From contig NW_024882777.1 of NCBI RefSeq assembly GCF_019059575.1, forward strand, positions 129,983-193,982: a stretch of 64,000 nucleotides of DNA. The letters run 5' to 3'. Source of the stretch: Amphibalanus amphitrite (Eukaryota; Arthropoda; Thecostraca; Balanomorpha; Balanidae). The position numbers and the translations under genes are program-made. Numbering within the stretch: the first letter of the stretch is position 1; each line of letters begins with the position of its first letter. Shown one piece after another: positions 6,538-62,690 of the stretch. The notes under the pieces are model-generated. The model did no database searches. It was given only the letters and a program-made list of their open reading frames with translations, and had not been told where the DNA came from.

Positions 6538-7158
6538 CCCGCACCCCGCTGGGGGTCCTTAAGGTACACGCCCTGCTGGTGGGCGGGGGTGTTTGAACAC
6601 CCCCTTTAAACTCAGCTCCTGGGCCATGTAGCGATACGGGGAAAGGGACGTTCGAAAAAGCGTAAGGAATGATGGCGAAATTACTTAGGTCACTTTTTCG
6701 GTCAGGTCAAAGGTCAGGTCACCAGAGGTGTTTTGGACCAATGCTACTTAAAGCCCAATTTCATGTGTTTGACCTGACCTTGACCCGACCTGTGACCTTG
6801 AAATTCAACTTTCAGGTACTCATCGGAAGTGTCTCGTCGCGTTCTTTCGTTTGCTTCCTCGTCCGTTTTGCTGCGTCTATTGGTTCTTGAGTTATCGGCT
6901 GGGTAGCTCTATTGGTTCCCGAGTTGTGCGCCGCTTTTTGAAGAAAAAATGTTGACATAGGCAAAATTTGACCTTTGGCGGCCTGACCTTTCACCTGGCT
7001 TAAAAAACGATTAACTATTTTCTTCATTATTTTTTAACGCTGTTTTGAATGCCACTTACCACGTGTCACCACGTGGCCCAGGAGCCGAGTTAAACGTGTG
7101 AAAACGCCCCTCCCTCTCAGCACGACACGGAAAACTATGACCATCAGCACGGTGCGGG
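6538..7158. mobile_element. TTAA-type MITE E8 (piggyBac-like termini)
   Basis: The left end CCCGCACCCCGCTGGGGG and the right end ...GCACGGTGCGGG form imperfect inverted repeats. The right side is followed by TTAA (7159); the left is preceded by ATAA, a one-base variant. Each end carries two related GCTG-containing tags. Inside the ends, a segment reading CTCAGCTCCTGGGCCATGTA is mirrored at 7072-7092. The interior has a perfect DR1 motif at 6704-6716. TTAA targeting with CCC...GGG termini is the piggyBac superfamily signature. There is no transposase. Confidence 0.75.
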
Positions 7159-7162
7159 TTAA

Positions 7163-7689
7163 CTTGACAGTTGAGCTTATCAGTTATCCGCCCCCTTCTA
7201 GCCAAACGCTCATCCACTGCGTCAGGGGAACTGAGGACGCCGAGACCCCGGACCTGGTGGCTGCCCTGGCCCCTCAAGCAGATTGATGCCGAGTTGCTTT
7301 GCATCGTTGATATCGAGGACATCAACGATGTACCCGGTCAATTTTATTTCGCCGCCGACCTGAATATTACATATATATGGATGGTGTTGGTCTGGCAGGG
7401 GGTTTGAGTGAATTTCTCTTTGGCCATACTGTACTGTTCGCCCGAGAGCTACAGTGGCGTCACAGAAGTCAATACTTTTATTATTACCCCTTTCCACACA
7501 GTATTCATTTTATTACATGGCCGGTGATGGCCCACTCCAACACGCTGATAAATATACCTATCGTTAAATATGTCGACGCTCAGAAGAAAAATGACAAAAA
7601 ATTCAGACGCGCGGATTGCTATTGGCAGTTGTCATGGACTAACAAAAATATGTAATCCCTCAGAATGAATACTATATTGATGAGAAACC
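7163..7689. other. Unclassified spacer
   Basis: Mixed-composition DNA between two elements. It contains a small inverted repeat CATCGTTGATATCGAGGACATC-type region near 7303-7329 (arms GATGTC/GACATC class, imperfect). Short open frames on both strands overlap each other and look like chance. Confidence 0.4.
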
Positions 7690-8866
7690 GTAAAGTGCCT
7701 CAAGGTACGGTTCCGTTTTTGGTGAATAACTTAGCAAAAAAAAAAAAACGGCCGCAGAGCCGCGATTTTAGCAGCATCGTGTTCGCCTCGCTCAGGCGCG
7801 TCGAATGGTATACTTTTTGTTTGGGTGAGGTCAACTTAAGGTGTTGACCTCAGGTCACGGTCAGGTCAGCGCCCCCAGGTCACGACATTGGTCGAAGTAG
7901 GCTATATCGCATATCATTCGATTTGGCACGTCTTCCTGAGTCCATTGGTTGCTTTCCCGACTCGCTAGCTCAAATTGCTCGGGAGTTATTGACGAAAAAC
8001 TAATATGACCCTAATGACGTCACACAAGGTCAAAATTGCAAAACTGACGCATGTTTCCTTGCAAGGAGTGCATCAAAGCACGATTCTGTGTGCTTGAGAT
8101 AGTTGGAGATCGTTCCCGGCGCCAGAATAGCAGTTTTCATTTTTCCCCATTAACATAATGGTGAGGTCACGAAAATGGCCTGACCTCATATGACCTTTAG
8201 GAAATTCCGAGACATTCAAGTTATGAGACTCGTAATGGATATTAGATCATGCAAGTTTCACAGTGGCGGATCCAGGATTTTCACTGGGGAGGGGCTGCAG
8301 GTCATAATTGGGCGCCACGCCCCGGATGGGCGCCATAGTCGCATCGTATTGGCGCTGAAATATTGGCGCCCAGTGGCCCTGACAAGAGGCGCCCAGGATC
8401 AGTATGTACAGTGACACCACACGATTGGAAATATCGGTGCGGAGCGTACTGAAACGACGTTATTCGACTGATTTTTGCATCCTAGTCCTAGTATGCGGCA
8501 CTCCGATGAGTTGCGAATTGAAAATTGGCGCCACTGCGCCTTCGGCGCAGTGGCGCCAGTTTTCCTTGGGTGGGGGCTGCCAGCCCCCGCAGCCCCCCCC
8601 CCCCTGGATCCGCCACTGAAGTTTCATTTCCCTGTGAAAGCTACTCTGGCAGTGAGGGCGTTGCGAAGTTGCGACATCTGACGACCGTGCAGAGGTTCCC
8701 TTATGACGTCATAGTTCAGTGACCTGACCTGACCTGAAAATGCGGTTGGTGTCAAAAGATCCGGCTTGAATCAACGGTCAGGTATGCCATGTTAAAGCTC
8801 TTTATCGCCAGCGTGTTTGGAGCTATCGCGAAGAACCCTATGGGGGTCCCCCCTCGGCCGGCGAGG
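7690..8866. mobile_element. TTAA-type MITE E11, one end missing
   Basis: The right end reads CCTCGGCCGGCGAGG and is followed by TTTAAAC. Read on the other strand it matches the left end of the element at 44601, including tag CGGCCGA and the CCCCATAGGG hairpin. The interior is the reverse complement of that element, with shared CAACTTCGCAACGCCCTCAC and GACGTCATA words, up to about 7690 where similarity stops without a terminus. It is interrupted by a 358-bp hAT-like MITE at 8261. Confidence 0.75.
8261..8618. mobile_element. hAT-like MITE H1, perfect 8-bp duplication
   Basis: The termini CAGTGGCGGATCCAGG and CCTGGATCCGCCACTG are perfect inverted repeats. The 8-bp direct repeat AAGTTTCA lies immediately outside (8253-8260 and 8619-8626), as expected for hAT insertion. 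The interior is rich in GGCGCC words and has a strong subterminal palindrome (GGCGCCACTGCGCC and its mirror, 8527-8556). A related copy of the host element at 44850-44870 lacks the insert and has a single target copy, so the boundaries are confirmed. Confidence 0.93.
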
Positions 8867-10346
8867 TTTAAACGTGTAGGTACTATTGTAGGAAAGAATG
8901 GGGTTATTTGGCCGTTTTTTTTTAATGATGTAACTTAAAATTGAAGATATATTTCGGCATTTCCTCAACGCTGGCAGGTGTCGCATTCATTTTGTTTTAC
9001 TGGACAGTAAACTTGAAATGATAGGGTAACTTTTATATTGAAGTTGTGGCGTAGGTATTACAAATGTCTACAAAGCGGCTAAATTGTCCCACCAGCAGGG
9101 TTATTTGGTCGGGGTGTGGTGCATTTTGGCCGGTTTTACTTTGAGGTCGGGATTTCTTCTTATAGGCGAGTCAGCTTCAGATTAAGCAATGACGTGTGTC
9201 CTATGACGCAGTTGACGCATTTTGGAAGTTGACTCAGCGGTCATAGTTTTCAAAAAATCGGTCACAAATAGTCCAAGGGGTTGACCTCAGGTCACGTTAC
9301 CTCAGGTCGCTTGACTTCAAGGTCACGTGTCTTCAAGGTCATCATGTATATCGTTCGATGCGCCTTGACGAGCTGAACACAATAATACCATTTGCGCGGC
9401 TGTATCTTTTTCTGTACGGGGTTATTAGCAAAACAAAACATTTGATGACGTCGCATGCCCTTACAGTTGCCCAATAGGAAATAAGGCATGAATGGTCCAT
9501 GTAGTTAAAGTTGGTCATGAATTATGTCATTTATGGTATAATTGACCATGACAACTCGGCTGTCCCAGCATAGTGACCTTGGGCGCACTGGCCAAGTTGG
9601 CCCGCTAGTCTCGGCCAAATGACCCCACATTGCCATTCTGAAAATTGTTGTCTAGTAAAGTAGTCATGGCTGTACGGAACTATATAATATTGCTCTTGGA
9701 ACCGCTGATCACCCCCAGGAATGGTGCTATAATGTCGGAATTCGTTTACAGCCCAAATACTACATGAAATACAACTTTTTAAACGGAAGTGAAGCTTACC
9801 ATTTTCTCAAGAAATTCACGTTTTATAATATGTATTATCCTTCGCCCGAGAGGCGGGGGCGGAGGGAGGGGGCGTTTTGGCCACACCTGCCAGTTTTTTG
9901 CGCGTGCAACGAAACTTTGTATAGCTTATCATACATCAATTTCGCATGGTGTGTGAAAATTTTGATCCCAGGTCACTTAAGGTCAGGTAACCAGGTCAAC
10001 TTAAGTAACCATACCTCTAAAAAACTTTGTGGTTCTGTCATTCCTACAGTGTACATCCCAGAAGTTTGAAACTCGTTTCAAACTTTCAAACTTTTGCATG
10101 AGGAAATCAGTATATATCTCGGAAGTTTCATATCGGTGACCAGCTAAATTTTGCGACCTGTCCATTATAAGTCAATGGGGGAAAGTTGAAATGCTCTTTG
10201 TTTGGCCGTAAACAATCTCAAACACCGTGACATAGGTAAGCATGACACACTGAACCGGAAAATTGTACCTGTGACCACTTCAATTATGCCCGTGAGGTCA
10301 TCCCAGATCATGAAACGTTACTAACAGCTTTTTGACAATAACTTAA

Positions 10347-11501
10347 CCCGCGCCCGGCTGGGGGTCCTGGATTTCCACGCCCTGCTGGGGGGGGGTGTTT
10401 GAACACCCCCCCCTTGTAACTCGGCTCCTGGGCCACGTAGCGATACGCGGAAGGCGGCGTTCGAAAGAGCGTCAAAAATAATGACGAAATCACTTCGGTC
10501 AATTTTTTGGTCAGGTCAAAGGTCAGGTCACCAGAGGTCATTGAAGGCAAAATTTCGCCGATTTCCAGGTCGAATGTCGAAAATTTCCAAGAAGCCAACG
10601 CATAACTCGAGAACCAATAGAGCTACAGCGCCGCGGAAAAGCGCATTCGATAGCCCTATTAAAGCCCTTTCTGAGTAATTCTCTTAGATTTGACCTAACG
10701 TCAACGGTTTTGCCTGCAGGGGGCAAAAGCTGCAAAAATAGCCGATTTTTTCGGAAACAGTTTTTCTGCAATAACTTTTGACCCAAGCCTTTTACGAGCT
10801 TTCTTTTACCGGCATCGTGTTCCTCTCGTCAAGACGCATCGAATGAACTATAACTTGACCTTGAAAGGTCAACTTGAAAATTTGACCTCAGGTCAAGGTC
10901 ATGACCTGACCGGAAAGGGTCATGTTGCATATCAGTCGATCCGTATCGTCGAGCTGAACACATCTAAGGCGTTTTCATGCGAAAAACTGTTAGATACCAT
11001 TCGTGACCTAAGATGACCTCAGGGCATAAACAAGGGTCACGGACACCATTTTCATGTTCAGTGTGTCTAAACCACTTGTAATTCGGTGTTTGGGAGTGTT
11101 TATAATGTCTTTTGTCCAAAAGAGGCGCATTTCAATTTTCTCCCATTGACTTATAATGGGGAGGTCGCAAAATTGACCTGACCTTAGGTCATCGATATCA
11201 AAATTCTGAGATATAAATTTTGTACATGCTATTGCTCTTAGCAATCGCTGAAAGTTACAAAGCGATCGGTTACTCGGTGTAGCTATGACAGGCATTTAAA
11301 CTTTTTATGAGGTGAGGTCACTTCAAGTGACCTGGTGACCTGACCTTGAATGACCTTGGTCTGAAATTTTCACAACATGTGTAGAATTGATGTATGATAA
11401 GGTGTACCAAAAACGGCGGCGCTCCGCGCCGCCGTTTTTGAGATATTCGCGAAAAACCACAAGGGGGGGGTGTTCAAACACCCCCCCCAGCAGGGCGCGG
11501 G
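10347..11501. mobile_element. TTAA-type MITE E6 nested in E7
   Basis: Complete copy with TTAA on both sides (10343-10346 and 11502-11505). The left end CCCGCGCCCGGCTGGGGG is followed by a second tag GCCCTGCTGGGG. The right end carries the single reverse-complement tag CCCAGCAGGGC before GCGGG. G-run/C-run hairpins built on TGTT(T/C)(G/A)AACA sit just inside each end (10388-10410 and 11463-11489). The interior is non-coding and packed with AGGTCA/TGACCT words. E6 is itself inserted at a TTAA in the core of E7. Confidence 0.88.
10513..10525 (+). promoter_or_regulatory. DR1 nuclear-receptor-type direct repeat
   Basis: A perfect AGGTCA-A-AGGTCA direct repeat with one-base spacing. Identical 13-mers occur at 6704-6716, 16149-16161 and 46939-46951, and reversed at 14390-14402, always inside TTAA-type elements. 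DR1 is the classic site for RXR/USP, HNF4 and COUP-TF-class receptors. Binding here is a prediction only. Confidence 0.4.
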
Positions 11502-12479
11502 TTAAGAAAGAAACATGCTAGAGCGCTGAAAACACCATAAATGTGTTCAGTTCAGCAAAAGGAGTCGAGTGACATGCAACATGACCTTTTCAGTGATTTG
11601 ACCTGAGGTCAAATTTTCAAGTTCACCTTTTCAGGTCAAGATATAGTTCATTCGACGCGTCTCGACGAGAAAAACGCGATGCCGGTAAAATCAACGTCAT
11701 GCAAGCTTGGAGTTAAAAGTTATGACACGGAAACTTTTCCGAAAAACGTCCTATTTTGATAGTTTTTGCTCTCTGGAGGCAAAACCGTTGACCTTAGGTC
11801 AAATCCGAAACATTCTTTTTCAGAAAGGCTTTTGAAAGAGCTATCGAATGCGTTCTTTCCGCAATGCTGTAGCTCTATTGGTTCCCGACTTATGCGCCGA
11901 TTTATGAAAAGTTTTCAAAATCGGGTACAACAATCGTGAAAATTTTATCTTTGGTGACCTCCAGTGACCTCAGCGATAACCTGATCAAAAATGACCTATA
12001 TGATTCTGAAAGATCTTGCAGCGAGCTATCTATAGCTTTTACTGTGTCTTTCTAGCTTGCTTTCTTTCTGAGGTAATCTGGTGTGGCCAAAAAAGCCCCC
12101 CACCATGGCGAAGTTGGCTGAGATGCCCACCCGGGCGCGGGTTAATTTGAACAAAGCTACGAGGGGAAAATTTTGACATTTGTCCTCGAGTTAGTTCTAC
12201 CCATGACGAATGAATAGGGACTAGAGTTAATTCATTCACTTTTATCAGACGTCGTACAGGTGGGGGCGGTCAATTTACACCATCGGCCAAATTACCCCAT
12301 TTTCCCCTACTCAGTATTTTATTTTATGTTACGCTGTTTTTTCATTTAACTGATTTTAAGCATGACTTCGCCTGCAAGTGGAGATAGCTCTGTTGGCATT
12401 ATGCAAATAAATAAGCAAACAAGTAAATAAATGAATAAAAAAATAAAACAGATTGTAGTAATCAATGCAGATTGGTGCA

Positions 12480-13141
12480 AAAGCATAAATTCGGGGCCTG
12501 TTAGAAATTCATAAAGTGAAGCTGTTATGGAGTTTTTGGGGTGCCGATCACGTATTTTATGTTAGTTTTGACCACAGATTATGAGTTCATGCATTTAGGC
12601 TAGCTCGGGTCAGTTCAGGTCAGGTCAACCAGTAGGCGTCCTGCCGGCTATCCATAGTAGGTGTCAACTACCACTGACGGCTTCGTAACATGTTACGAAG
12701 GCACTAAAACTACTAAGTAAATGATCAAACGGATGCTAGGAACATGTAAAACTCAAAAAAGTGAATCAAGGTCCTCAAAGGTCAATGACCTTGACCTGAC
12801 CCTTACGTGACCTTGGCACCCACCGTAATGCATGGGACGAACATCATTTGACATGCTGGACGTTTACAACACAAAAAAAAGACTGGAAACGCGCTGATAA
12901 TATGATCTGAAATACGCTGAATCGCGATTTCGGTCAAACATGGTCTCGAGAAAAAGGTCAGGGGTCAAAGGTCATTGAGGTCAAGGACATGAAAGAAAAA
13001 AAGAGTTATGTGTAAAATCTGTCAACTCTGGGGTACTGAAAGTTTCGTCGCGATCGTCCGCTTTTTGAGTGAGATTATTCGCGAAAAACCGAGGGGGCGG
13101 GTCCTGTCCAACTACCCCTACACATGCGTGACATGCGAGGG
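12480..13141. mobile_element. TTAA-type MITE E12, right part only
   Basis: The right end ...GACATGCGAGGG is followed by TTAA (13142-13145), with a GGGGGCGGGTCCTGTCCAAC... hairpin remnant just inside. The body matches the elements at 15470-16321 and 46224-47115, with shared CTTCGTAACATGTTACGAAG and GGTCAGGTCAGGTCAACC segments. No left terminus is found, so the copy is truncated. Confidence 0.7.
12779..12791. promoter_or_regulatory. IR1 palindrome AGGTCA-A-TGACCT
   Basis: A perfect inverted repeat of AGGTCA with one-base spacing, the layout recognised by EcR/USP-type receptors in arthropods. The orthologous position in the related element at about 16006 has one mismatch and that at about 46753 has also decayed. 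Function is inferred only. Confidence 0.35.
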
Positions 13142-13145
13142 TTAA

Positions 13146-14220: not shown

Positions 14221-14224
14221 TTAA

Positions 14225-15408
14225 CCCTCGCTGGACGCCGCCACAGGGGGGGGGGGGGGGTATGCAACTATCCACTAAGGTTTTTCGCGAATAACTCGCG
14301 TAAAAAGCGGCCGATCGCGACGAAACTTTCAGTCCCTCGCATTGATCAATTTTACACCTACCCTGAAAATTTCATGACCTTGACCCAAATGACCTTTGAC
14401 CTGTGACTTACTTTCCGAGACCATGTTTGGCCGGAATCGCGATTCGGCGTATGTCGGCTCGCATTGGCCGCGCGTTTGCAGTCTTTTCGTGGTTTTATGC
14501 GTTCAAACATGGGATATGATGTTGCTCCCATGCATTAGGGTGGGTGTCAAGGTCATCGGAAGGTCAGGTCAGGCCATTGATCTTTGGTGACCTCGGTCCA
14601 CTTTTTCGGGTTTTACATGTTACTAGGCTAGTTTTTTGAGGTGAATTCGAATTTAGCAACCATTTGAACATTTACGAAGTAGTTTTGGTGCCTCCGTAAC
14701 ATGTTACAAAGCTGTCAGAGGCGGTTGACACGTATTACGAATACCCGTCACGACCCCTACTGGTTGACCTGACCTGACCTGACCCGACCTGGTCTAAATA
14801 CTCAATGACATCATCTGTGATCAAAACTAACACGATATTCGTGATCGGCACCCCGGGAAAACCCCATAGCAGCCACACTTAATGTCTATCTATCTATCGG
14901 GCCCTCAGGGGTCCCAGGCAACCAGGGGCCCCCATGCGACCAGGCCCCCGCTACCTTGGCGACTAGGGGCCCCAGGCGATCAGGGGCCCATGCGACCAGA
15001 GGCCCCATGCGACCAGGCCCCCTGGCTACCAGGGCCCCCTAGGCGACTAGGGACCCCAGGCAATCAGGGGCCCCATGCGACCAGGCCCCGGCTACCATGG
15101 GCCTCCTAGGCGACCAGGGACCCAGGAAACCGGGGGCCCTCGGATGACTGCAGGGGCCCATCGGGTAACCAGGGGCACATAAATGAAACTTTGATATCAT
15201 TTTTTCTTCCTAGTAAAAGACGTTTTATCCAGTGTTCGAAAAAATATACCGGGGCCCGAGGGGCCCCCTGAGCGCCGAAGGCGCTCAGGAGGGGGCCATG
15301 GCCCCCGTGGCCCCCCCCCCTTGGGTACGTCACTGCGCGAGGGGGGGTCGTACCCCCCCCCCCCCCTTGTGCCGTCGATGGACGCAAAATGGCCTGTGCC
15401 GGCGAGGG
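14225..15408. mobile_element. TTAA-type MITE E9, interrupted and partly deleted
   Basis: TTAA precedes CCCTCGCTGGACGCCGCCAC (14221-14224) and follows ...TGTGCCGGCGAGGG (15409-15412). The right end carries tag CGGCACA twice (reverse-complement sense), nearly identical to the left end of the element at 46224. The left body is the reverse complement of the 46224 element up to CATAGCAGCCACACTT (14878). There an unrelated GC-rich element interrupts it until 15335, with loss of some host sequence. It includes a perfect reverse DR1 (14390-14402). Confidence 0.68.
14879..15335. mobile_element. hAT-like element fragment with GGGGCCC minisatellite
   Basis: The right end reads CCTTGGGTACGTCACTG, a CAGTG(A/G)CGTA-type terminus typical of many hAT MITEs. 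The left half (about 14895-15130) is a degenerate tandem array of (A/C)CCAGG(G)GCCCC(A/C)TGCGA-like units. A GGGGCCCC...GAGCGCC palindrome lies at 15250-15300. No left terminus or matching 8-bp duplication was found, so this copy is truncated inside E9. Confidence 0.55.
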
Positions 15409-15469
15409 TTAAAAAGATTTCGCTTCGCTTGCGCGGTCCGTTCGCTCGTATATTTCTCCTTCGTTTTAA

Positions 15470-16321
15470 CCCTCGCCCGTATTCGTGCTTGCCAGCGTCT
15501 AACGTATAGGGGGGGGGGGGGGTCCGTTGGACTCTCCTTGCCGTTTGGCCTCTGATGGAGCTAGAGAGAAAAAAAAACGAGCGCGTTGCCCGCAACGAAA
15601 GTAAGCCGATGATACCTAACTTTATGGTCTTATTTATGTCACTGGTTGACCTTCCAGGTCAGGTCAATGACCCAAAAATCGGAAAAATCGGGACTTGCTG
15701 GAAGTTCGTAAAGTGAGGTTGAAAAAGGGATTTTGTGGGGTGCTGAACACGTAGTTCATGTTAGCTTTGATTACATATCTTTGATGTCTTAATGTATTTA
15801 GGCCAGGTCGGGTCAGGTCAGGTCAGGTCAACCATTAGGTGACCTGCCGACCATCCATAGCAGGTGTTGACCACTATTGACAGCTTCGTAGCATACGAGG
15901 GCACCAAAACTATTTCATAAATCTCCAAATGGGAATTCGAAATCAGCCCCAGAAACTACCATAGAAACATGTAAAACTCGAAATAGTGAAGCAGGGTCAT
16001 CAAAGGTCAATGACTTTGACCTGACCTTCAAGGGACCTTGAAACCCACACCAAAAAAAAAAATTGGAAATTGCGCGGATAGTGTGAGCCTCAGCCGACAT
16101 GCGCCAATTCGAGATTCCGGTCGAACATGGTCTCGAGAATCAGACCACAGGTCAAAGGTCATTGGGGTCAGGGTCATCAAATTTTAAGACGGTAAGTGTA
16201 AAATTGATTAACTCGAGGGTAGGTACTGAAAGTTTCGTCGCGATCGGCTGTTTTTTGCGCGAATTATTCGCGAAAAACCGGGAGGGGGTCCGTTCGACCC
16301 CGCTATATGTAAGTGCGAGTG
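15470..16321. mobile_element. TTAA-type MITE E10
   Basis: TTAA lies on both sides (15466-15469 and 16322-16325). The left end is CCCTCGCCCGTATTCGTGC with a second tag AACGTATAGGGG. The right end is ...AAGTGCGAGTG with the terminal GGG changed to GTG. The subterminal hairpin is G-run + GTCCGTTGGAC. The interior carries TTCGTAGCATACGAAG-type and AGGTCA words, including a perfect DR1 at 16149. It is non-coding and is separated from E9 by only about 60 bp. Confidence 0.8.
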
Positions 16322-18184: not shown

Positions 18185-18880
18185 AACTAAACGAGGGCTA
18201 AGAAAAAAATCAATTTTTCAACTTGTTATTTTTGACATAAAAATGCACTTTTCTAGACGAGCTTTGTCCCAGGAATCTAGTGGCGCCATTTGTTTTCACA
18301 TGCGATGTTCAGAAGTGCCTCTAATTCGCGAAAATGCTTATGACGTCACCTTGCCCTATGCATGTTGAAGCTATTTTTTACAATTTGGGGGTCAAAAATC
18401 GAGATAGAAAGTTTAAATTTGGGCCATCTAATGTTCTAATAGCGGTCTATAGCATATATTCCGGTTTTTTGGAAATTCTCAAAATTTTGGATTTTATTAG
18501 CTGTTTTCCAAAAAATATAGCTTTTTGAATTTTTAGGGGTGAAAAACGCATTTTATGGAAAATCCGAGATAGCCATTTTAAAGAACTCGTTGAGCTGTGT
18601 CATTTCATGTCCTTAATTTGCAATTTGCCCAAAACCTCGATTTTTGGCGATTTTTTAAACATTTACCACTTTTTGACCGAAAACGCCATGTAGTTACATT
18701 ACTAAAATCGATATATCTAAAAAAAATTGAATTTTTTTCTTAAACATTGCACAGGAGACGTCAAATTGATGAGGGAGAAGGTATGCCAAGTTTCAAGTTG
18801 ATAACGCAAGCGGTTCATGAGTTATTCAAGAAAAACGGAGGGGGGGGGGGTCGGATCCGACCCCCCCAGGCGGTCGCGGG
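18185..18880. mobile_element. TTAA-type MITE E13, right end only
   Basis: The right end ...CAGGCGGTCGCGGG is followed by TTAA (18881-18884), with the palindrome GGTCGGATCCGACC flanked by G- and C-runs just inside (18835-18867). The body is AT-rich and non-coding. I could not find a convincing left terminus, so the start given is approximate. Confidence 0.55.
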
Positions 18881-21130: not shown

Positions 21131-21591
21131 ATTTTATGTTGACCGCAGTACAAGATACCTACGTGTTAAGATTTCTTTAAACATCGAAATATAAAAACTA
21201 AACAATTTAATACGTTGTACGTATCAAATTGTCAATCAAATGAATACCGATGTGCTGGAAGCAGGAGGCCACGCCGGTATTTAGTTAAAATTGCCGTAAG
21301 CCAAGGTGCTTTATTTGGTTTCCATGGTTACTGACGCTATTACGCTTGCATTTCGCGAGCAGAGAAGCTGAAAAGTTGAAACAGATTCAACTTTTCAGCT
21401 TGCAACTCGCGCCGGACTGATTTTGCTTGCGTTTCGCTCGCGTTTCGCTCGCGTTTTCCGAGCGGGATCCGGCGTGATTTCGCGGCGTAAAAGCGAGACG
21501 ACCTGCGTGTTGGGAGCTGAAAATATGCCATGCATTGCAATGGGAGAAGCGAGACGCGATTTGCGAGCTGAAAAGCTGTGTTCCGGCCTTA
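21131..21591. other. Spacer with perfect 16-bp hairpin
   Basis: A perfect inverted repeat (arms 21365-21380 and 21386-21401, AAGCTGAAAAGTTGAA, 5-base loop) sits among TTGCGTTTCGCTCGCG-type direct repeats at 21340-21470. This may be a small unclassified MITE. I see no gene. Confidence 0.5.
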
Positions 21592-24295
21592 AGACGGATT
21601 ATTCAAATGCCAAATGTTATATAACATTGAACTTGCAATGAAACAGAGATTAATATGCATTTTTGAAATTTCGAAAAATACGCTATTTTTGATATATGAC
21701 ATATCGAGTTTTCTTTCATTTGTATTTTTTGGACTTTGGGACCAAATTTTTTTGAAGTTTTATTTCTTTAAAAAAATATTTGGTTCATTGTTAAGAAGTA
21801 TGCAAAAAATTAGGAAGGTGTTCTTTCTGTAAATGTATTTATTTTACGTCACGATAACGGTTTCGAATAGTGATTTCGGGAGGGGAGCTTACAAATGGCG
21901 TGGTAAAGCTGCCTAGTGACATCACGGGTTACTGAAATTTCAATTTAAGTCTGAGTCATCTGAAAAAAAAGTGAAAAGAGGGTCCATCCAACCCTCTTTC
22001 CTATAAGCGCGAGGGTGAAAAAGGCTGTTTGGTTCTGACATTGTTTTGCACGCCAATGACCATAGCTGTCCGAGATGAAAGTTACAGGACGCATACATAG
22101 TGTGCTCCAGAGGTCTCACAACTTGTATATCTGGGAATTTGTCAAGGTTACATGAGGTCAGGTCGGTCACGTGACATCACTGTCATAAATAAATGGGGAA
22201 ATATAAAAAACTGTTATTTTGGCGCTGAGAATGATCTAAAACTATCCCACGTACATGGTATCGTGATTTCATGCACTCCTTGCAAAGTCCAATGCTTTAC
22301 TTTTGCATTGTTAACCTTGCGTGACGTCATTTATGACGTCACTAGGGTCGTACGAGTTTTTCGTCAATAACTCCTGATCAAATGGCGCTAGAGAGTCGGG
22401 AAAGCCACCAATGGACTCGGGGAGACCTTCCGAATCGAATGATATGCCATTTGATACAATTTGCCCAGCTTCGTGACCTGAGGGGCTCTGACCTGACCTT
22501 GACCCGAGGTCAACTACTTAACCCGCGCACCGACGGGGGGGGGGCGGATATCCGCCCCCCCCCTGAGGTTTTTCGCGAATAGCGGGAAAACCGCGGCGCG
22601 TAGCGCCGCGAAATTTGGTATGACTATAACCCCATCAATTTTACACATGGTGTGCAAGTTTGAACCTCCTACCTTTTAAGGTCAGGTCACCAGGTCACTT
22701 TGAATGACCCAACCTCAAGTCACTTTTTTGCAACTTTGTCACCGTGCCAGAGCTACAGTAGATGTCGGAGGCCTTTGAAAGTCGCAGGATATTATTAGGT
22801 CATTAGTAGCTACAATTTGTGTATCTCGGAATTTTGATATCGGTGACCTAAGGTCAGGTCAATTTCGCGACCTCCCCATTATAAGTCAATGGGGGAAAAA
22901 TCAACTCCCTGTTTTTACCACTAAAACGGGTCGGAATGGCCCCACATACCATACATGACTTCATATACGATCAACCTTCACTACCTTGAGGTCTGTTTTG
23001 CTGTTGGGCAGCTGTGAGGTCATGTGACGTCATCAAAGGTCACCAAAGGTTTTTGGCCAATAACTCCGTACAGGAACAAGATACAGACGCGTGGATGGTC
23101 TCATTGTGTTCAGCTCGTCAAGACGCATCGAATGATATACATGATGACCTCGAGGTCACGTGACCTGAGGTCAACCTTTGACCTTGACCTTTCGAGGTCA
23201 ACATATATATCATTCGATGCGGATTGACGAGAGGATCACGATGATGCCCTTAGTTTGTTCCTATCTTGACTAATTCGAAAGTTATTCGAGAAAAACTCTC
23301 TCCATATCTAGCGCCGCCATTTTGACCTTTTCGACCCCTGTGACGTCATCTTTGACCTGACCTGAAAATGACCTTAGAAAAATTGTAGATCTTGGCCGTG
23401 CGTATCCGATGCCGTTTACCGCTTGTCGCTATCTTGCTTCGTTCTCGAGATCTCAGGGGGGGGCGGTCATCCGCCCCCCCCGTCGTCGGTGCGAAGTTGG
23501 CGCAGACCCCCGTCGGTGCGCGGGTTAAGTTGATCTCACCCTAGCAAAAAGTATACCATTCGATGCACCTGAGCTAGGCGAACACAATGATGCCAAAATC
23601 GTGGCTCTGCGGCCATTTTTTGCGAAGTTATTCACTAAAAACCGAACCCGTAACTTCAGTCACGTGACCTGACCTCAGACGCTACCGGTTAACCTGAGAC
23701 CTTAAAATCGGGTACCAATCGCTGCGACTTGTAACGGCACACACGCTCGTTTTTTTCGCGAGGCTCTAGGTCTATTAGAAACGAAACGGCGTGCTGGGGT
23801 CCTATCAACCCCTCCGAAACCCATTTTGTTTGCGGGAAAATTAGGAACTTATAGAAAGAACACCTTTCTATTTTTTTGCATGTCGATTTGCAATGACATG
23901 AAGTTTATTTGGAAAAAATAAAAATATGAAAAATTTTGGTCCCAAAAGTCATTAGAGGCAAATGAAAAAAAGTTTAAGGTTTTTGCTCAACAATGAAATT
24001 TTTTCTTTGGAATTTTTAAATAGCAATATTAATTTTTGATTCATCGCAAGCTTAGTGTTGTTTACTTTTTGTTGGTTGCTTAACCCGTTCTTGAGTTAGG
24101 TATAGGCCATCAAACTCACCGTTACATACCGAAGTTAAAAAAATGTAATGCAATATAACTCAAAAAGTTTTGATCTGAGAAGTCTGATATTTTGCCAGGC
24201 GTCTTTGGGGCCTATGATTACCCATAGGACTAATTTTCATTAAAATCTGAGAGATGAGGGTGACGGGCCTGGTACGATCTATCGTGGAATGCCCC
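21592..24295. mobile_element. Foldback-type element FB2 with inserted MITE
   Basis: From 21592 (AAGACGGATTATTCAAATGC) to the right terminus ...GATCTATCGTGGAATGCCCC (24295) this copy follows FB1 closely. The first 215 bp of the left arm, including the GGGGCATTCC terminus, are missing. The core matches FB1 up to CAACTACTTAA, where a 1-kb TTAA element is inserted; it resumes at GTTGATCTCACCCTAG. The paired TGACGTCA sites are conserved. It is non-coding. Confidence 0.82.
22522..23524. mobile_element. TTAA-type MITE E4, insertion proven by empty site
   Basis: Complete element between TTAA copies at 22518-22521 and 23525-23528. Left end CCCGCGCACCGACGGGGG. The right end read outward-in is the same terminus followed by a second GCACCGACG tag. 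G-run/C-run hairpins are GGCGGATATCCGCC (22541-22555) and GGCGGTCATCCGCC (23462-23475). The sister foldback copy has an uninterrupted ACTTAAGT at 2729-2736, proving both the insertion and the TTAA duplication. The interior carries many AGGTCA/TGACCT words and no coding frame. Confidence 0.92.
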
Positions 24296-27865: not shown

Positions 27866-28895
27866 CCCTCGCCCTGGCAGGGCATTTTTCATAACACGGC
27901 TTGGCAGGGGGGGGGGGTCGATGCGACCCCCCCCTCGCGATTGGCTCCTATGGCACCTAGAAACACCAAATTTGGTAGGTAGGTGGGCCCCCTGGAGTTC
28001 TCGCCCCTGTGCAAATTTGGTTGCTCTAGGTCAATATTTAGGGGGGTTTTGGGGGGTATATATGAATTCGCTAAAAACAGGTCAAAAGTTTTTCGCTTAT
28101 AACTTTTGATCTAATTAAGATAGAGGAAAAAGAAAAGCACCAGTGAACTCAGCACGTCAAGGCGCGTCGAATGATATACTTTTTAGCTTGTTTAAGTGTA
28201 CTTAAAGTTTTTCTTAATTTTTAAGTAAACTTAAATTTATAAATTAAGTTCAAGTTAACCAAATTGCGTCATATCGTATATCATTCGATTCGGCTGATCA
28301 CCAGGAACACAATGATACCATTTTTTAAGCTCTAGCGTCATTATGTGCCAAGTTATTGACAAAAACGTCATTTGACCTCAGTTAACCTCATTTGACCTGA
28401 CCCATGGATAAGTACACCAAACAAAGAAGCACCAAGTGACCTGCTGTTAAGTACTGTGATTTCAAAGCACAAAAATGATAGAACGAAGCGGATAACTCCA
28501 GTATTTTCCGAATTTAGTAATTTCCCATAGGCTTAACATTACGACGTAATGGCCTCTAACTGACCTCAGGTCAGTGACCTCAAAAAACCCGAACTATATG
28601 TTATACAACTCGGTGAACTTAGCACATCCTGAAAGTTTGAAGGAAATCAGTCCAAAACTGTGAGTTGGACAGGTGCAAAAAGAAAATTGAAATTTGACCA
28701 TGACCTTGTACCGGTTTTTCTGACCTGGTGACCTGACCCAAGGTCACCCGGACCTGAAATTTTCAGGTCATATGTAAAAAGGTTGCCCCATAGGCTGTGC
28801 CAAATTTGGCGGCGCTGCGCGCCGCCGTTTTCACGCTATCTTCGAAAAACCTTAGGGGGGGGTCGCATCGACCCCCCCCCCTGCCAGGGCGAGGG
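27866..28895. mobile_element. TTAA-type MITE E1, complete 1,030 bp
   Basis: TTAA lies on both sides (27862-27865 and 28896-28899). The left end is CCCTCGCCCTGGCAGG, then an 18-bp spacer and a second tag CTTGGCAGG. The right end (outward-in) is CCCTCGCCCTGGCAGG directly followed by G-run DNA. Both ends carry the same hairpin core GTCGATGCGAC / GTCGCATCGAC between G- and C-runs. The interior is non-coding with multiple TGACCT words and a GGCGGCGCTGCGCGCCGCC palindrome at 28809-28827. Confidence 0.9.
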
Positions 28896-40003: not shown

Positions 40004-40189
40004 TTGACCGTTAAAATAATACAAAATACATGTTTCATGTTTCATAAAGAGCTGTGTTGTCCCAGTGGCCAGTCGGTATTCAAAATATCCTCAGGAAACT
40101 CAAATCTTCCTCCACGCCGCAACCCCCTGATGCGGATCCTGGACGGGAAACTTTATCCCATTTGGGATTGCCCGTAAGCCGAGCTCGCC

Positions 40190-40560: not shown

Positions 40561-40566
40561 CGTTAG

Positions 40567-40641
40567 CTGGCTGCGTGGTGTAGTGGTTTGCGCACTAACC
40601 TCGCGTTCGAATGACAGGGGGTTCGAATCCCATCGCCGGCT
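40567..40641 (+). ncRNA. tRNA-derived segment with A and B boxes (SINE head)
   Basis: The A box TGGTGTAGTGG (40576-40586) and the B box GGTTCGAATCC (40620-40630) are 33 bases apart, as in RNA polymerase III internal promoters. The acceptor arm does not pair fully and no clean anticodon stem forms, so this is a tRNA-derived SINE head rather than a functional tRNA. A second B-box-like GGCTCGAATCC lies at 40693-40703, in a local tandem duplication. Confidence 0.65.
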
Positions 40642-40739
40642 GATGCTTTTGGCGTGTTGTCCCAGTAAACATGCCGATGTCGGCGACTGGGGGGCTCGAA
40701 TCCCGCCGCCGGTTGATATTTTGGGCGCGTTGTCCCAAT

Positions 40740-40965
40740 AAACATGCCGACGTCGGCCCCGTCGGTCCAACGACAAACGATCTCGTCAACCTCGGCAAAC
40801 AATCTCGGCCCGACGTCGGCTCGACGTCGGCTGGACTTCGGCTGGACGTCGGAACATGCGGGCATATCCAACGTCCAGCCGATGTCGGGCCGAGGTTGAA
40901 CCGACGTTGGGCCGACGTCGGGCCGAGCCTCGGCCCGACGTCGGGCCGACGTCGTCATGTTTACT
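40740..40965. repeat. ACGTCGG palindromic minisatellite, array 2
   Basis: Same units as array 1, on the other side of the SINE segment and in mirrored context, ending at CATGTTTACTGGG before the right inverted repeat. Confidence 0.88.
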
Positions 40966-41126
40966 GGGACCATATCTGAAATATGGTTCTGTATCATTCG
41001 TATTTGTGTATTTTCATATTTCAAACCATTCAATAAGGCAACACAATAAAGCCGAAATATTTGGGTTTTTAACGATTATTTTTTTACCTCAGTGTAGCCC
41101 GAAACCAATACGAATTATACCATTTA

Positions 41127-44600: not shown

Positions 44601-45626
44601 CCCTCGCCGGCCGAGGGGGGGCGGGTGCCGCCCCCCATAGGGTTTTTTCGCGATAGCTCCGAACACGCTGGCGATAGAGAGCTGAAACTTGGCATACCTG
44701 ACCTTTGATGCAAGCCGCATCTTTTGACACCAACCGCATTTTTGGGTCAGGTCAGGTCACTGACCTATGACGTCATAAGTGAACCTCTGCACGGTCTTCA
44801 GATGTCGCAACTTCGCAACGCCCTCACTGCCAGAGGAGATGTCACAGGGAAATGAAACTTGCAGGATCTAGTATCCATTATGAGTCTCACAACTTGTATA
44901 TCTCGGATTTTTCCTAAAGGTCATATTAGGTCAGGTCATTTTCGTGACCTCACCATTATAAGTCAATGGGGAAAAATGAAAACTGTTATTCTGGCGCCGG
45001 GAATGATCTCCAACTATCTCAAGCACACAGAATCGTGATTTGATGCACTCCTTGCAAGGTAAGATGCGTCACTTTTGCAATGTTGACCTTGTGTGACGTC
45101 ATTTATGACGTCATCAAGGTCATATTAGTTTTTCGTCAATAACTCCTGATCAAATTGAGCTAGCGAGTCGGGGAAGCCACCAATGGACTCAGAAAGACCT
45201 GCCGAATCGAATGATATGCGACATGACCTCTTTTGACCAACTTCGTGACCTTCGGGTGCTGACCTGACCTTGACCTGAGGTCAACACCCCAAGTTGACCT
45301 GACCCGAACAAAAAGTATATCATTCGACGCGCCTGAGCAAGGCGAACACGATGCTGCCAAAATCGCGGCTCTACGGCCGTTTTTTGCGAAGTAATTCACC
45401 AAAAACTGAACCGTACCTTGGGGCACTTGACCTGACCTCAGAGGTCACCGGTTGACCTAGGACCTTAAAATCGGGTACCAATCTCTGCGTCTCGTAACGG
45501 CGCACACGCTCGTTTTTTCCGCGACGCGCTAGCTCCACCAGGGGCGAAACGGCGAGGGGGGGGGGTCGTACCCGCCCCCCCCCCTCGGCCGGCGCGTATG
45601 TAGAAAACCAATAGGTCCGGCGATGG
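44601..45626. mobile_element. TTAA-type MITE E3, complete
   Basis: TTAA lies on both sides (44597-44600 and 45627-45630). The left end CCCTCGCCGGCCGAGG carries a single tag. The right end (outward-in) starts CCATCGCCGGACC and has a second, inner CGGCCGA tag next to the G-run hairpin. The core contains paired TGACGTCA sites, many AGGTCA/TGACCT words and the uninterrupted target of the H1 insertion. It is homologous to the foldback cores at 2240-3010 and 21840-23800. It is non-coding. Confidence 0.9.
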
Positions 45627-46223: not shown

Positions 46224-47115
46224 CCCTCGCCGGCACAGGCCATTTTGAGTCCTTCGACGGCACAAGGGGGGGTTGGTACGACCCCCCCCCCTCGCGTTTG
46301 GCCCCTGATCGAGCTAGAGCAACGCGGAAAAAACGAGCGTGTTGCCCGTCACGAGATGAAGCCAATGATACCCAATTTTAAGGTCCTAAGTCATCGGGTG
46401 ACCTTCCAGGTCAGGTCAATGACCCATACATCGGGAATATCGGACCTGTTAGAGAGTCGTAAAGTGTGGCTGCTATGGGGTTTTTCGGGGTGCTGATCAC
46501 GAATATCGTGTTAGTTTTGATCAGAGATGATGTCTTTAAGCATTTAGACCAGGTCGGGTCAGGTCAGGTCAGGTCAACCGGTAGGGGTCGTGACAGGTTT
46601 TCGTAATACATGTCAACCGCCTCTGACAGCTTCGTAACATGTTACGAAGGCACCAAAACTACTTCGTAAATGTTCAAATGGTTGCTTAATTCGAAATCAG
46701 CTCCAAAAACTAGCCTAGAAACATGTAAAACTCGAAAAAGTGAACCGAGGTCACCAAAGGTTAATGACCTGACCTGACCTTCAGGTAACCTTGACACCCA
46801 CCCTAATGCATGGGAGCAACATCAAATCACATGTTTGAACGTTTGAAACCACGAAAAGCTTGCAAACGCGCGGCTAATGCGAGCCGACATACGCCGAATC
46901 GCGATTCCGGCCAAACATGGTCTCGGAAAAGAGGTTACAGGTCAAAGGTCATTTGGGTCAGGGTCATGAAATTTTCAGGGTAGATGTAAAATTGATCAAT
47001 GCGAGGGTACTAAAAGTTTCGTCGCGATCGGCCGCTTTTTACGCGAGTTATTTGCGAAAAACCTTAGGTGGGGGGTTGCATCAACCCCCCACCCCCACCC
47101 CTGTGCCGGCGAGGG
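46224..47115. mobile_element. TTAA-type MITE E2
   Basis: Left end CCCTCGCCGGCACAGGCC with a second CGGCACA tag 20 bp inward. The right end outward-in reads CCCTCGCCGGCACAGGGG. Flanks are TTAT and TTTA, each one change from TTAA. The G-run/C-run hairpins are GTTGGTACGAC and GTTGCATCAAC types. The interior has TAACATGTTACGAAG and a perfect DR1 at 46939-46951. It belongs to the same subfamily as E9, E10 and E12. Confidence 0.85.
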
Positions 47116-54314: not shown

Positions 54315-54954
54315 AAAATTACTCACCAAATAAGGGAAAAGGGTGGAAAATTGATGGTCAGATAAGGCCTAAAGAGTGGAAAAAGAATGTACAGCAAAAT
54401 TTAATACAAGGCTGGTATGTGGGAAGTAAAATGGCTATCGGTCCATGCAAATGCTTTTTCTTGGCAAAATTGGGAGTGGAAAATGGGCTTAAATAATGGA
54501 GGCGAGTGAAAAGTGATTTTCATTTGGATGTCGTTTCCCACCTAAATCAACAAACTTTGGAGCACTGGTACGGGGTACCCCTCGCCAGCATCAGGGTTCA
54601 CGTCACTCAGGACCTGCCTATGGTTGGTTGGTGGGTGAGTTACTGTACCTTCTATGGGTGACATTGAGCCAGCTCGGCGTTTGGAGGCAGTAAACCCCTC
54701 CAAAACGTGTCGAGCTAGGAAGCAACGGCAACCTTTATACCCATATTGGCCTGTTTACAGCGTAGGGGCTGTCTGTATGCCGGTCATTTGGTCCCTGATC
54801 AATCCGGAGCTTCGCGGAAAGGCAAGCTTGTTGCCCGTGGCGGGTGATGCGGATACTATCAGATTTCAAAAACGGGTATTTTTGGTATTCAGGTCGGGTA
54901 ATTGCCTTGAACATTCGGAGAATCTTGGGATGCCCAATTCTGCAAGTCCCGGGT

Positions 54955-55735
54955 GAAGCTCGCTAGTCTGCCCGGGGGTGTCCCCCTCTACAACGACCCC
55001 GTGGCAGCTCGCTAGTCTGCCCAGGGGATGTCCCCTTCTACAACGACCCCGGGGCAGCTCACTAGTCTGCTCGGGGGTGTCCCCTTCTACAGCGACCCCG
55101 GGGCAGCTCGCTAGTCTGCCCGGGGGTGTCCCCTTCTACAACGACCCCGGGGCAGCTAGCTCGCTAGTCTGCCCGGGGATGTCCCCTTCTACAACGACCC
55201 CGGGGCAGCTCGCTAGTCTGCCCGGGGGGGGGATGTCCCCTTCTACAACGACCCCGGGGCAGCTCGCTAGTCTGCCCCGGGGTGTCCCCTTCTACAACGA
55301 CCTCGGGGCAGCTCGCTAGTCTGCCCCGGGGGTATCCCCTTCTACAACGACCCCGAGGCAGCTCGCTAGTCTGCCCGGGGGTGTCCTCGCCTACAACGGC
55401 CTCGGGGCAGCTCGCTAGTCTGCCTGGGGTGCCCCCTTCTACAACGGCCTCGGGGCAGCTCGCTAGTCTGCCCCAGAGTGTCCCCTTCCACAACGACCCC
55501 GCGGGGCAGCTCGCTAGTCTGCCCGGGGGTATCCTCTCCTGCAACGGCCTCGGGACAGCCCGCTAGTCTGCCCGGGGTGTCTCCTTCTACAGCGGCCTCG
55601 GGGCAGCTCGCTAGTCTACCCGGGGATGTCCCATTCTACAACGGCCTCGGGGCAGCTGTCTAGTCTGCCGAGGATGTACTTTTCTACAACGGCTTCGGGG
55701 CGGCTTGCTTGTCTGCTTGGAGGTGGCTGCCGCTA
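54955..55735 (+). repeat. 49-bp minisatellite, about 15 units
   Basis: Units start GCTAGTCTGCCCGGGGGTGT and continue CCCCTTCTACAACGACCCCG to GGGCAGCTC. Most are 49-50 bp, with progressive divergence toward the right end. The period is not a multiple of three and no frame is conserved. Confidence 0.93.
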
Positions 55736-55740
55736 GGACG

Positions 55741-57949: not shown

Positions 57950-57954
57950 AGGTG

Positions 57955-60133: not shown

Positions 60134-60812
60134 CGCAACTCCAGGGGCGTCGTTTTGTATAGGCCTGGTAGGGCCCGAGCCCTACCAATGTTTATTTGGG
60201 CCCTACCAATGTTTGTTGAGCCCTACCAATCTTTTGTTACTTATCAGTTGATAAAAAATCAAAATGAACGGGTAAGCAAATAAGCACATATGTAGATATA
60301 TAAGGTTCTAGCCATAGTAGGTGCATGTAGCTGACAATGAGGTGTCGTGTCTTGGGCCTCCGGTCCTTGGTGGATTCTAAGAGGCTCGAAAAAGCAATTG
60401 GTTATAGAGGTCCATAACTGCCTCTGAGTGCCGCACACCACGCGACCGCCCCTAATAGACCCCGATCCGTCTCCACACCAGCCGCTGGAGGCCCTACACC
60501 GACTTCGGAAGGTGCGGCGTTGCTCCAGAATAGGCCATATGCATGTTGGTTTGAGTGGGTGATGCAGCCTGATTCCCGAGGGTCCAACGCCAGGTCATTT
60601 CCGCATCAGATCCTGAAAACTCAAGCTCATTATCTACGAGGGGCGTTCAAAACACTTTCGGACCGAACAATGAAGGAGTTGGAATTTCGGCCGGCAAGGC
60701 GGTGTGTTAAATGATGTGTTATTGGGATGTCCACTTACGTATCCATTAAGTCTGTCCTGTGATTGACTCGGGCTGCTAATTAATCGTAGCATAGTTTGCC
60801 ATTTCGGATAGG

Positions 60813-62690
60813 ATGGGCGACACCCAGAAGAGAGAAGTGATTCGGTTCATAGTATAGGTACTGCAGAAAAGGCAGCAAGCGTTATTCACGAAAAGCTAGT
60901 GACAACTGCCAACACATGTCGAGGTTTGTCTTTCTTACAGCAGTGTCAAATAGTGGGTATCCTGTCCAATTTTGATCAACAGATCATTGAAGGTGACCCC
61001 CGCAGTGGCCAGCCATCAATAGCATTGACTCAAGCATAGATAACATGAATCTATCCTATGTTATCTATGACTCAAGAAAATATGAAAAATGAGCACTTTT
61101 TGTTGAAAAATGGCAAATGTTTCTTGCCTGGAAGCACGCAGTGCAGAAGCATCGGATTCCTCAAAGCAATTCATCAGCGTCTTAGTATGTTTAAGATCTC
61201 TCATCTCTGCAAGATGTATCCCCCTTTGCTGACTCTGCAGAGAAAAGGCAAGCTCGAAAGGAGGCTCAGCGCGAAATTTTTGGCCCCTTTATCGAAGATC
61301 TAGAAGATGTCACTTTTAACCCTAGAACGCCTAGGGGGGGGGTTGTATCAACCCCCCCCCTGAGGTTTTTTCGAAGTGCACGCTAAACGGCTTGTCGTAG
61401 CGGGCTGAAATTTTCAATACCCTATGGGGCAACCTTTGCGCATCTTTTGCCGAAAAAAAATTGATCGGGTCATGTCAGGTCACGGAGTTATGACGTCATA
61501 AGAGGTACAGCCTCCGGCCGGATTTTCACAAACTGAGTGCCAACGCCCGAGGTTTCCTGCCGGTGGTACGGACATCGGTTGATGGATCGTGATGAAACTT
61601 CCCATGCATGTTGGGGCAAGTATTGGCTATCATATGGTATAAGAAATTTGACCAGGTCAGGTCAGGTCACGGAGCTATGACGTCACAAGAGGAACAGCGT
61701 CCGGTACTATTTTTGAAAAGCGCCCGAACCACTATTTTGCTAATTCTTGTCACCTCAATGGGAATATGCAGCAATATTAGCTTCTATAGGGAGCAAATGG
61801 ACCTCCCAAATCCAAAAATACAATCAGATTTCAAAAATTTAAATTTTGATTTTTCGAATTTCTGCCGCCGACTGTGACCTTGCCGACTTCCGGCGCTCCC
61901 AACGCGCCATTTTTAGAGCTAGGGAAACGAAATACATACCAAACGATAGAGAATTGATCAAGGAACACGATAGTGAAGGTTTCAAGTCGATATCTCCCAC
62001 CGTTTTGCCGCAATCGCCGCCGAAAGTTGAAAAAAGTCTATTTTTCCGAAAATTTTACCTTTGACCGGTCAAAAGTAGGTCAAATGTTGACCTAGGACCA
62101 AAAAATATACCACCAATCGCGAGATCTCGTTGAGAGCAATCCGTTGGTTTTTTCCGCTAAGCTCTACGACCTTCCGTTTCGAAACGCCAGGGGGGGGGTC
62201 GTAACAACCCCCCCCCTGGTCGTTCGTGTTATGAGAAATGGCCTGGTCGTGCGAGGGTTAACATCTTGTTACCGTAAAGGAATTGTGGGTGTCGCACATT
62301 GACCCTAAGGGCGTGACCGAGTTGCGCAAGTGGGAGCACACCGAGTAACAGCCACCAAATGAGTGCAACAATGAACAAGGTGAGGTTAGTCGGCAAGGTG
62401 ATAGTAGTTGCATTTTCGGATGCTGACGGGGCTCTGCTCGTCAACTTTCTAAAACAGGGGCGCACAATTGATGGTGTGCGTCCATTCGATAAACATCGAG
62501 GAGAGGCTATAGGGAAGCTGACATAAAGTGTGCACCTGATCCACGACCACGCACCTGCGTACATGGGCGGGGTGACGATCAGTGAAGCGGTGAGCTGTGG
62601 CTTCGAGTTGTTGTCGCATCCACTTTTTTCTCCGAACCTTGTACACTCCGGTTGCCACCTCTTCCCCAACACAAGGAATTTAGCAGTGGC
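60813..62690 (+). pseudogene. Mariner transposase pseudogene
   Basis: The frame opens MGDTQKREVIRF at 60813. The remnant of the N-terminal DNA-binding region is recognisable by IIEGDPRSGQPSIALT (about 60985-61035). A linker fragment LTLQRKGKLERRLSAK lies near 61235-61280. After the MITE come ELWVSHIDPK near 62281-62310 and LIHDHAPAYMGGVT with SHPLFSPNLVHSGCHLFPN at 62533-62672, corresponding to the mariner catalytic region HDNAPAH...YSPDLAPSD. Several stops and frame changes are present. The first catalytic Asp of the usual GDE motif is not preserved, and the Asp of the PDLAPSD motif is replaced. It is non-functional. Confidence 0.88.
61320..62257. mobile_element. TTAA-type MITE E5 inside mariner
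   Basis: TTAA lies on both sides (61316-61319 and 62258-62261). The left end is CCCTAGAACGCCTAGGGG. The right end outward-in is CCCTCGCACGACCAGGCC with a second ACGACCAGG tag 20 bp inward, next to the G-run hairpin GGTTGTTACGACC-type. The left hairpin core is GGTTGTATCAACC. The interior includes (AGGTC)n words. Its insertion splits the mariner transposase frame. Confidence 0.88.

Follow-up and report, generated by a model that had tools for sequence, protein, structure and literature searches.

piggyBac is a leading gene-delivery tool. For the transposon of Trichoplusia ni, the portions of the published accounts used here describe a left end (LE) that starts with CCCTAGA, carries AAGATAGTC at bp 8-16 and a palindrome from bp 17 (PMC7351741), and a right end (RE) that carries AAGATAATC at bp 8-16, an identical copy 27 bp further on and the palindrome from bp 45 (PMC3078864). 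The two ends thus comprise 35 bp at the 5' side and 63 bp at the 3' side (LE35/RE63), an unevenness that Chen et al., who solved the piggyBac structure, deemed puzzling (PMC7351741). In piggyBat, all six bases of the motif at bp 11-16 are recognised via side chains of the core domain, according to the relevant part of PMC11707139. In the barnacle Amphibalanus amphitrite, a survey of piggyBac elements (PMC10813416, in part) listed 5 as full-length and 3 as intact, described PiggyBac-3 as recent and PiggyBac-5 as long-lasting, and deliberately excluded miniature inverted-repeat transposable elements (MITEs); we found no description of the barnacle MITEs among the open-licence papers searched. 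Here, we analysed a stretch of 64,000 nucleotides of this genome (contig NW_024882777.1, positions 129,983 to 193,982 of the forward strand; 'the window'), in which an earlier note, made from the sequence alone, had reported MITEs inserted at TTAA whose paired ends share a short tag peculiar to each element.

We read these elements as non-autonomous MITEs of the piggyBac superfamily whose ends are family-specific modules, presumably bound by a transposase, that were re-keyed in successive waves (probability about 0.88). Insertion at TTAA (for one element), the register of the end motifs, family-specific pairing of the tags and two elements that carry both a piggyBac transposase gene and such ends were observed directly. 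The barnacle ends consist of CCC(T/G)CGC, a tag of approximately 9 bp at bp 8-16 and a palindrome from about bp 17. At one end, termed the L end, a second copy of the tag follows 27 bp inward and then the palindrome, whereas the other end, termed the S end, has the tag once; 'tag' refers to bases 8-16 throughout. The end starts observed were CCC(T/G)CGC, CCCTAGA and CCCTATT, i.e. terminal inverted repeats (TIRs) of the type CCC/CCY.

In order to describe the doubling, ends were scanned for a second copy of the tag (at least 6 of 8 bases, 12-45 bp on). Among the ends not classed as single, 27 had one, at +27 in 16 cases and at +26 in five. Of the remaining six, three or more are spurious, and the script had counted as single four additional double ends with an offset of +27. 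In the element C387, which starts with CCCTATT-AGTGGCAGG, the L end repeats the entire 16 bp at an offset of 27. An 18-bp spacer was kept on one end only in the elements read, except in 6538-7158 of the window, which is double at both ends; with this exception, the earlier claim of one double and one single end was borne out. The same note had taken the duplication for an undescribed feature. We rejected this, since T. ni piggyBac has a published duplication at the identical 27-bp offset, and the doubled tag is therefore the known piggyBac asymmetry. A purely structural hairpin reading of the ends was likewise rejected, as elements with piggyBac transposase genes carry them.

The pairing of the tags was assessed on ends from the window and from one 200-kb stretch of contig C1, which was chosen where matches to the tag CGGCACA were listed and in which S-type ends are about 1.8 times as dense as the genome average (13 in 0.2 Mb). 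Adjacent convergent ends were paired blind to the tag, which gave 23 pairs (7 from the window and 16 from the sample), among which an evidently spurious pair at 119330-120827 was retained; the ends had been chosen for TTAA and CCC(T/G)CGC, hence these features lie outside the test. Agreement over bases 8-16 was 7.17/9 within pairs compared to a mean of 4.30 in shuffled pairs (maximum 6.04; 0 of 20000 shuffles reached the observed value). The 16 pairs of the CCCT class gave 6.5 vs 4.67 (0/20000) and the seven pairs of the CCCG class 8.71 vs 6.23 (31/20000). A hand-made set of 29 elements (9 from the window, 18 from the sample, C44 and C387) gave 5.93/7 vs 2.88 (0/20000), and its greedy reduction to 12 rows 5.42 vs 2.78 (0/20000); this set is less independent than the blind pairs, as nested elements were matched partly via the tag and C44 and C387 were selected for their ends, and the 12-row grouping counts three decayed ends as families and merges some distinct tags. 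In the C1 sample, a triple nest (194340-198989 around 195629-198729 around 196536-198498) has agreeing tags at each level. The expectation of the earlier note that left and right tags agree beyond chance was thus confirmed.

The six elements quoted in that note (10347-11501, 22522-23524, 27866-28895, 44601-45626, 46224-47115 and 61320-62257) are all present, each with ends at or near CCC(T/G)CGC, a shared tag and a G-run/C-run palindrome. TTAA flanks both sides in five of the six; 46224-47115 is flanked by TTAT and TAAA, read towards the element. Together with further elements and remnants, the window holds the following features:

2731..2734, no strand: TTAA of the empty site matching the insertion 22522-23524.
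6538..7158, no strand: element with L-type ends on both sides, shift 27 in each; related to the CCTGCTGGG family; flanks ATAA/TTAA.
7690..8867, plus strand: remnant of the CGGCCGAGG family; S end at 8867, L end lost, interruption at about 8260-8619.
9839..12141, minus strand: older decayed MITE around 10347-11501, which is nested within it; L end at 12141 with tag CCGGGTGGG, S end at 9839 with CCGAGAGGC.
10347..11501, plus strand: MITE with tag CCTGCTGGG; L end on the low side with outer copy CCGGCTGGG, S end on the high side; palindrome core GTGTTTGAACAC on both ends.
12487..13141, plus strand: ATGTGTAGG-type remnant; S end at 13141, L end not seen; interior as in the CGGCACAGG family.
14225..15408, minus strand: CGGCACAGG MITE; L end at 15408, S end at 14225 decayed.
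15470..16321, plus strand: CCGTATAGG-type MITE; L end at 15470, S end at 16321 divergent; interior homologous to the CGGCACAGG family.
18806..18880, minus strand: lone S end reading CCCGCGA-CCGCCTGGG, palindrome GGTCGGATCCGACC; no partner end found.
22522..23524, minus strand: ACCGACGGG MITE; S end at 22522, L end at 23524; occupied site within a duplicated repeat.
27866..28895, plus strand: CCTGGCAGG MITE; L tags at 27873-27881 and 27900-27908, S end at 28895 with tag at 28880-28888; palindrome core TCGATGCGA on both ends.
44601..45626, minus strand: CGGCCGAGG MITE; S end at 44601, L end at 45626 with outer copy CGGACCTAT and inner copy CGGCCGAGG.
46224..47115, plus strand: CGGCACAGG MITE; L end at 46224, S end at 47115; interior of about 740 bp common to the CCGTATAGG and ATGTGTAGG families.
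61320..62257, minus strand: internal-deletion derivative of the C44 element type; L end at 62257 with ACGACCAGG twice, S end at 61320 with CCCTAGA-ACGCCTAGG.

The other copy of the repeat around 22522-23524 is uninterrupted at TTAA 2731-2734, and TTAA is duplicated around the element; thus, 22522-23524 is a true insertion with TTAA duplication, the empty site being available for this one element. The repeat copies, 1805-3496 and 21590-24295, are 96-98% identical, the second being split by 22522-23524, and hold an old CGGCCGA-like element (82% over 700 columns). In 44601-45626, CGGCCGA is found in the inner L copy and the S end only; the outer L copy, CGGACCTAT, recurs in several copies (b53044, b173028 and L031) and is therefore a family trait and not decay. 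The element 6538-7158 may represent either a dead fold-back or a variant with symmetrical ends. Among the listed open reading frames of at least 200 amino acids (aa), none lies within a window element. Scans of the window for Rfam families and transfer RNAs gave no matches.

The earlier note had regarded the tags as specific to single elements. The two ends of an element do match, but the tag is a property of the family and not of the single element, because every family member carries the same one. Within a family, pairing is consequently, to the letter, no better within than between elements, an outcome that the note had named as speaking against its claim. At least 15 tags were recognised: CGGCACAGG, CCGTATAGG, ATGTGTAGG, CCGCACATG, CGGCCGAGG, CCTGGCAGG, ACGACCAGG, AGTGGCAGG, GGGGCTGGG, CCTGGTGGG, CCTGCTGGG, ACCGACGGG, CCCAGTGGG, CCCGTTGGG and CCCACTGGG, some of which are one base apart, with CCCAGTGGG seen only on ends of separate elements. 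Most families have clearly distinct interiors, and the tags go with the interior. In the assembly searched (807.55 Mb, 2644 contigs), exact S-type ends with any tag number 28,535 (reversed-pattern control 0), and ends within two mismatches of TTAACCCTCGCCGGCACAGG number 16,398 (control 1), a count that lets in CGGCCGAGG and CCGCACATG ends, each two differences away. Since the 200-kb sample had 13 exact S ends listed and 57 candidate ends of both types, about 52 of which were judged real, a rough extrapolation gives approximately 110,000 ends, or 55,000 elements, in the genome. At positions 414-419 of locus L049 (C527:289800-290700), one TTAA separates two S ends of identical tag arranged back to back, as if one element had inserted exactly at the end of another; similar pairs of ends occur in the C1 sample at 38047/38052, 47482/47487 and 76170/76175.

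Matches to DDE_Tnp_1_7 number at least 116 in the genome, and the first 40 listed span nearly the whole profile. We sampled 15 transposase regions (L029-L043), two of them extended, and the flanks of seven further loci. As the earlier note had anticipated in calling the ends piggyBac-like and proposing a search for transposases with the same tags, two elements with piggyBac transposase genes carry these ends. The first (C44:1060846-1064812; 3967 bp) has ACGACCAGG twice at its L end and CCCTAGA-ACGCCTAGG at its S end. The window element 61320-62257 aligns to its flanks with 91.3% identity over 310 columns and 90.5% over 390, and given the common tags and this flank identity it is an internal-deletion derivative of the C44 element type as its parent. 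Sister copies have C44-type ends as well, on both sides in C527, at the S end in C42 and at the L end in C171, the latter two having been fetched one-sided. The C44 protein (P0122) matches PF13843 at 8.5e-70 and the T. ni transposase structure at 1.2e-73. For P0123, a full-length sister protein, the T. ni structure aligned through the cysteine-rich domain, and the protein is closer to T. ni (1.7e-76) than to piggyBat (3.4e-29). The second element (C702:41278-45357) sits within a CCTGCTGGG element and has CGTATAGG as the inner copy of its L end and CCGTATAGG at its S end; the two pieces of its transposase lie in different frames and share 53% and 63% identity with P0122. Both elements have the T. 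ni polarity, with the S end upstream and the L end downstream of the gene. The C44 gene appears to be frame-shifted near residue 593-611, towards the C-terminus, because its tail matches sister copies in another frame; these have open frames of 674 aa. As judged from sequence comparison, the suggestion that diversified transposases read the tags is backed by these two tag-transposase pairs only. At C778, the subterminal DNA matches the CGGCACAGG family and the element's own ends were not found, and the ends of the C53 and C412 transposases were not found with the expected L side alone fetched. Nine equal-score matches with an open frame of 604 aa (C103, C188, C913, C1226, C1407, C1950, C8, C39 and C45) probably represent a recent piggyBac family; the copy on C103 has CCCATTAGTGCCCA ends.

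Three families share one body. An interior of about 740 bp is common to the CGGCACAGG, CCGTATAGG and ATGTGTAGG families, with up to 91% identity between copies. The consensus interiors of CGGCACAGG and CCGTATAGG are identical in 680 of 701 scored columns (97.0%, a value inflated by the exclusion of columns with fewer than four letters or a majority below 60%), and the lone good ATGTGTA copy agrees with the CGGCACA and CGTATAG consensus interiors at 94.8% and 94.2%, respectively. In the tag and palindrome bases of CGGCACAGG and CCGTATAGG, by comparison, 21 of 45 differ (47% vs 3% in the interior), i.e. the recognition sites of the CGGCACA/CGTATAG/ATGTGTA lineage changed about 15 times as much as the interior; the binomial value of 2e-20 for 21/45 is descriptive only, the sites being hand-picked and hand-aligned. 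On either side, interior homology restarts directly after the palindrome. The 17-bp subterminal sequence of this lineage is common to 2,893 L ends genome-wide (control 0), and the 16 of these with letters shown comprise four CGGCACA, eight ATGTGT and four CGTATA-type ends. Copies of CCGTATAGG are older than those of CGGCACAGG, with 91.1% against 96.1% identity to their own consensus (7 + 7 copies; Mann-Whitney P 0.017). A comparison of CGGCACAGG with 'CGTATAGGG' was discarded, as its shifted register overstated the difference, which in register is 3/9 at the S end. The in-register tags of the lineage differ by 3-5/9 and near neighbours exist in other families; stepwise change is therefore as possible as block exchange. 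We tentatively propose, at somewhat less than even odds, that one miniature body swapped its full set of binding sites (three tags, two palindromes) at least twice, a 're-keying' of the MITE by which the same parasite would have spread in successive waves under different transposases.

Based on the described parts of the piggyBac structures (PMC7351741 and PMC11707139), the tag would be read by the core domain and the palindrome by two cysteine-rich domains acting as a dimer; an inner dimer would occupy the duplicated copy at the L end. Since a single transposase has to bind the two ends of an element, their tags would agree, and divergence of the transposases would account for the different tags of different families. 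In the shared-body lineage, the whole recognition set changed on a nearly constant body, which we take to reflect successive amplification waves with new keys. Several observations weigh against this interpretation. The tag-transposase pairs established are only two, C44 and C702, and both copies look disabled. Among the 15 regions L029-L043, six have CCCATTA- or CCCAGATC-type ends without the G-run palindrome and eight yielded no recognisable end pair, and none of the transposase loci examined was tied to CGGCACAGG ends. The element 6538-7158 carries double tags on both ends, and the G and C arms of the palindrome differ in length among copies, so that the bases read by the cysteine-rich domain are a guess. 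Finally, the median pairwise identities of the shared interior are 80.7-88.6% between families compared to 92.1% within CGGCACA, and a tree of 17 interiors, weakly supported, partly sorts the tags: most CGTATAG copies are grouped, CGGCACA is paraphyletic, and one ATGTGTA copy falls among CGTATAG.

The latter results bear on the view that the tags are mere descent markers of ordinary families without function, TIRs always matching within a family. Members of a family do have the tag in common and interiors are mostly distinct between families, and in most of them the tags go with the interior; a full explanation of the tag groups by interior phylogeny, which the earlier note had named as refuting its claim, is thus partly borne out, the tree of the shared-body lineage also sorting some of the tags. 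The size of the recognition-site change in this lineage is not explained by descent, however, the sites being 47% different and the interior 3%, and the register equals that of T. ni; we consider this view unlikely. Homogenisation within an element, by gene conversion or fold-back copying of one end onto the other, was the second explanation offered in the earlier note. It would agree with the frequency of 9/9 matches despite the differences between families and with the two double-tag ends of 6538-7158, which end-copying would be expected to produce. We nevertheless rejected it as very improbable, since the tag copies differ slightly in a way that is constant within each family: ACGACCAGG at the L end and ACGCCTAGG at the S end in C44, C527 and window element 61320-62257, the outer CGGACCTAT against the inner and S-end CGGCCGAGG in several copies, and CCGTATTGG/ACGTATAGG/CCGTATAGG. 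Also, the 18-bp spacer is confined to one end in the elements read other than 6538-7158, and left-right matches beyond the family consensus in single copies were not noticed in the sample, in an inspection made without a formal test.

Compatible with transposase-bound, family-specific end modules is a further scenario, in which recombination gave an existing body a complete new end set, by end capture or by conversion of the body between families, instead of the tags changing step by step along with a changing transposase. The resumption of homology just past the palindrome, between interiors that are alike in 680 of 701 columns and sites that differ in 21 of 45 bases, speaks for such an event. 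Tags that are 3-5/9 apart and have near neighbours also fit stepwise change, however, and no family that has these ends on a different body, and could have donated them, was found; we regard this scenario as less likely than not.

Other parts of the window hold further repeats. A 765-aa open frame at 33865-36162 (minus strand) has a reverse transcriptase domain (RVT_1, 2.8e-28) and probably belongs to a non-LTR (long terminal repeat) retrotransposon; its best relative, 87% identical, lies on a 3.7-kb contig. The repeat pairs 50381-50680/56610-56909 (300 bp) and 56358-56612/57083-57337 (255 bp) are identical, pointing to a very recent duplication or an array. An array with a unit spacing of about 49 bp occupies 54948-55674, and 39811-40967 comprises clusters of CGACGTCGG-like repeats, spaced by 11 bp, that flank a gap of about 0.8 kb.

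The many natural families that follow the same plan with different letters could reveal the bases that determine specificity and the corresponding transposase residues, and piggyBac systems that exclude one another (orthogonal systems) could be sought among them. Where one body occurs with several kinds of ends, it could be asked how MITEs follow or switch between transposases. If re-keying is true, the genome holds a natural set of at least 15 end sets, possibly orthogonal, on the piggyBac plan.

The closest likeness is to T. ni piggyBac, whose published descriptions, as far as used here, share with the barnacle elements the TTAA target, the CCC ends, a motif in bp 8-16 followed by a palindrome from bp 17 and, solely on the 3' end, an 18-bp gap and a further motif copy at +27. 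Window element 61320 has the T. ni start, CCCTAGA, at its S end, and the barnacle transposase has a cysteine-rich domain of the T. ni type. Unlike in T. ni, the barnacle tags and palindromes have other letters, the palindromes being G-run/C-run, and many families, mostly gene-less, occur in one genome. The available parts of the piggyBat accounts (Myotis lucifugus; PMC11707139, PMC13405395) describe a barnacle-like plan of a repeated core-domain motif with a palindrome 3 bp downstream, as well as asymmetric ends and a tetramer; piggyBat differs in lacking an easily recognised piggyBac repeat pattern, in having palindromes at the left end alone and in another cysteine-rich fold. The piggyBac types of the A. 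amphitrite survey (PMC10813416, in part) come from the same species as C44 and C702 and were compared by description only, which does not imply identity with either. Among the papers searched, we found none on swapped MITE ends; the nearest precedent, a partial one, is the CMITEs of Acropora, which according to the portions of PMC2872659 at hand are TTAA MITEs tied to piggyBac with family-specific TIRs and an interior more conserved between families than the TIRs. They differ in their length of about 100 bp, the same portions mention neither a double motif nor a palindrome, and the tie to a transposon is given there for family I only (AmiPB1, identical TIRs and weak adjacent similarity). The anatomy of this piggyBac group is itself known, and what is new in the barnacle is how many keys exist in parallel and that one body carries changed keys.

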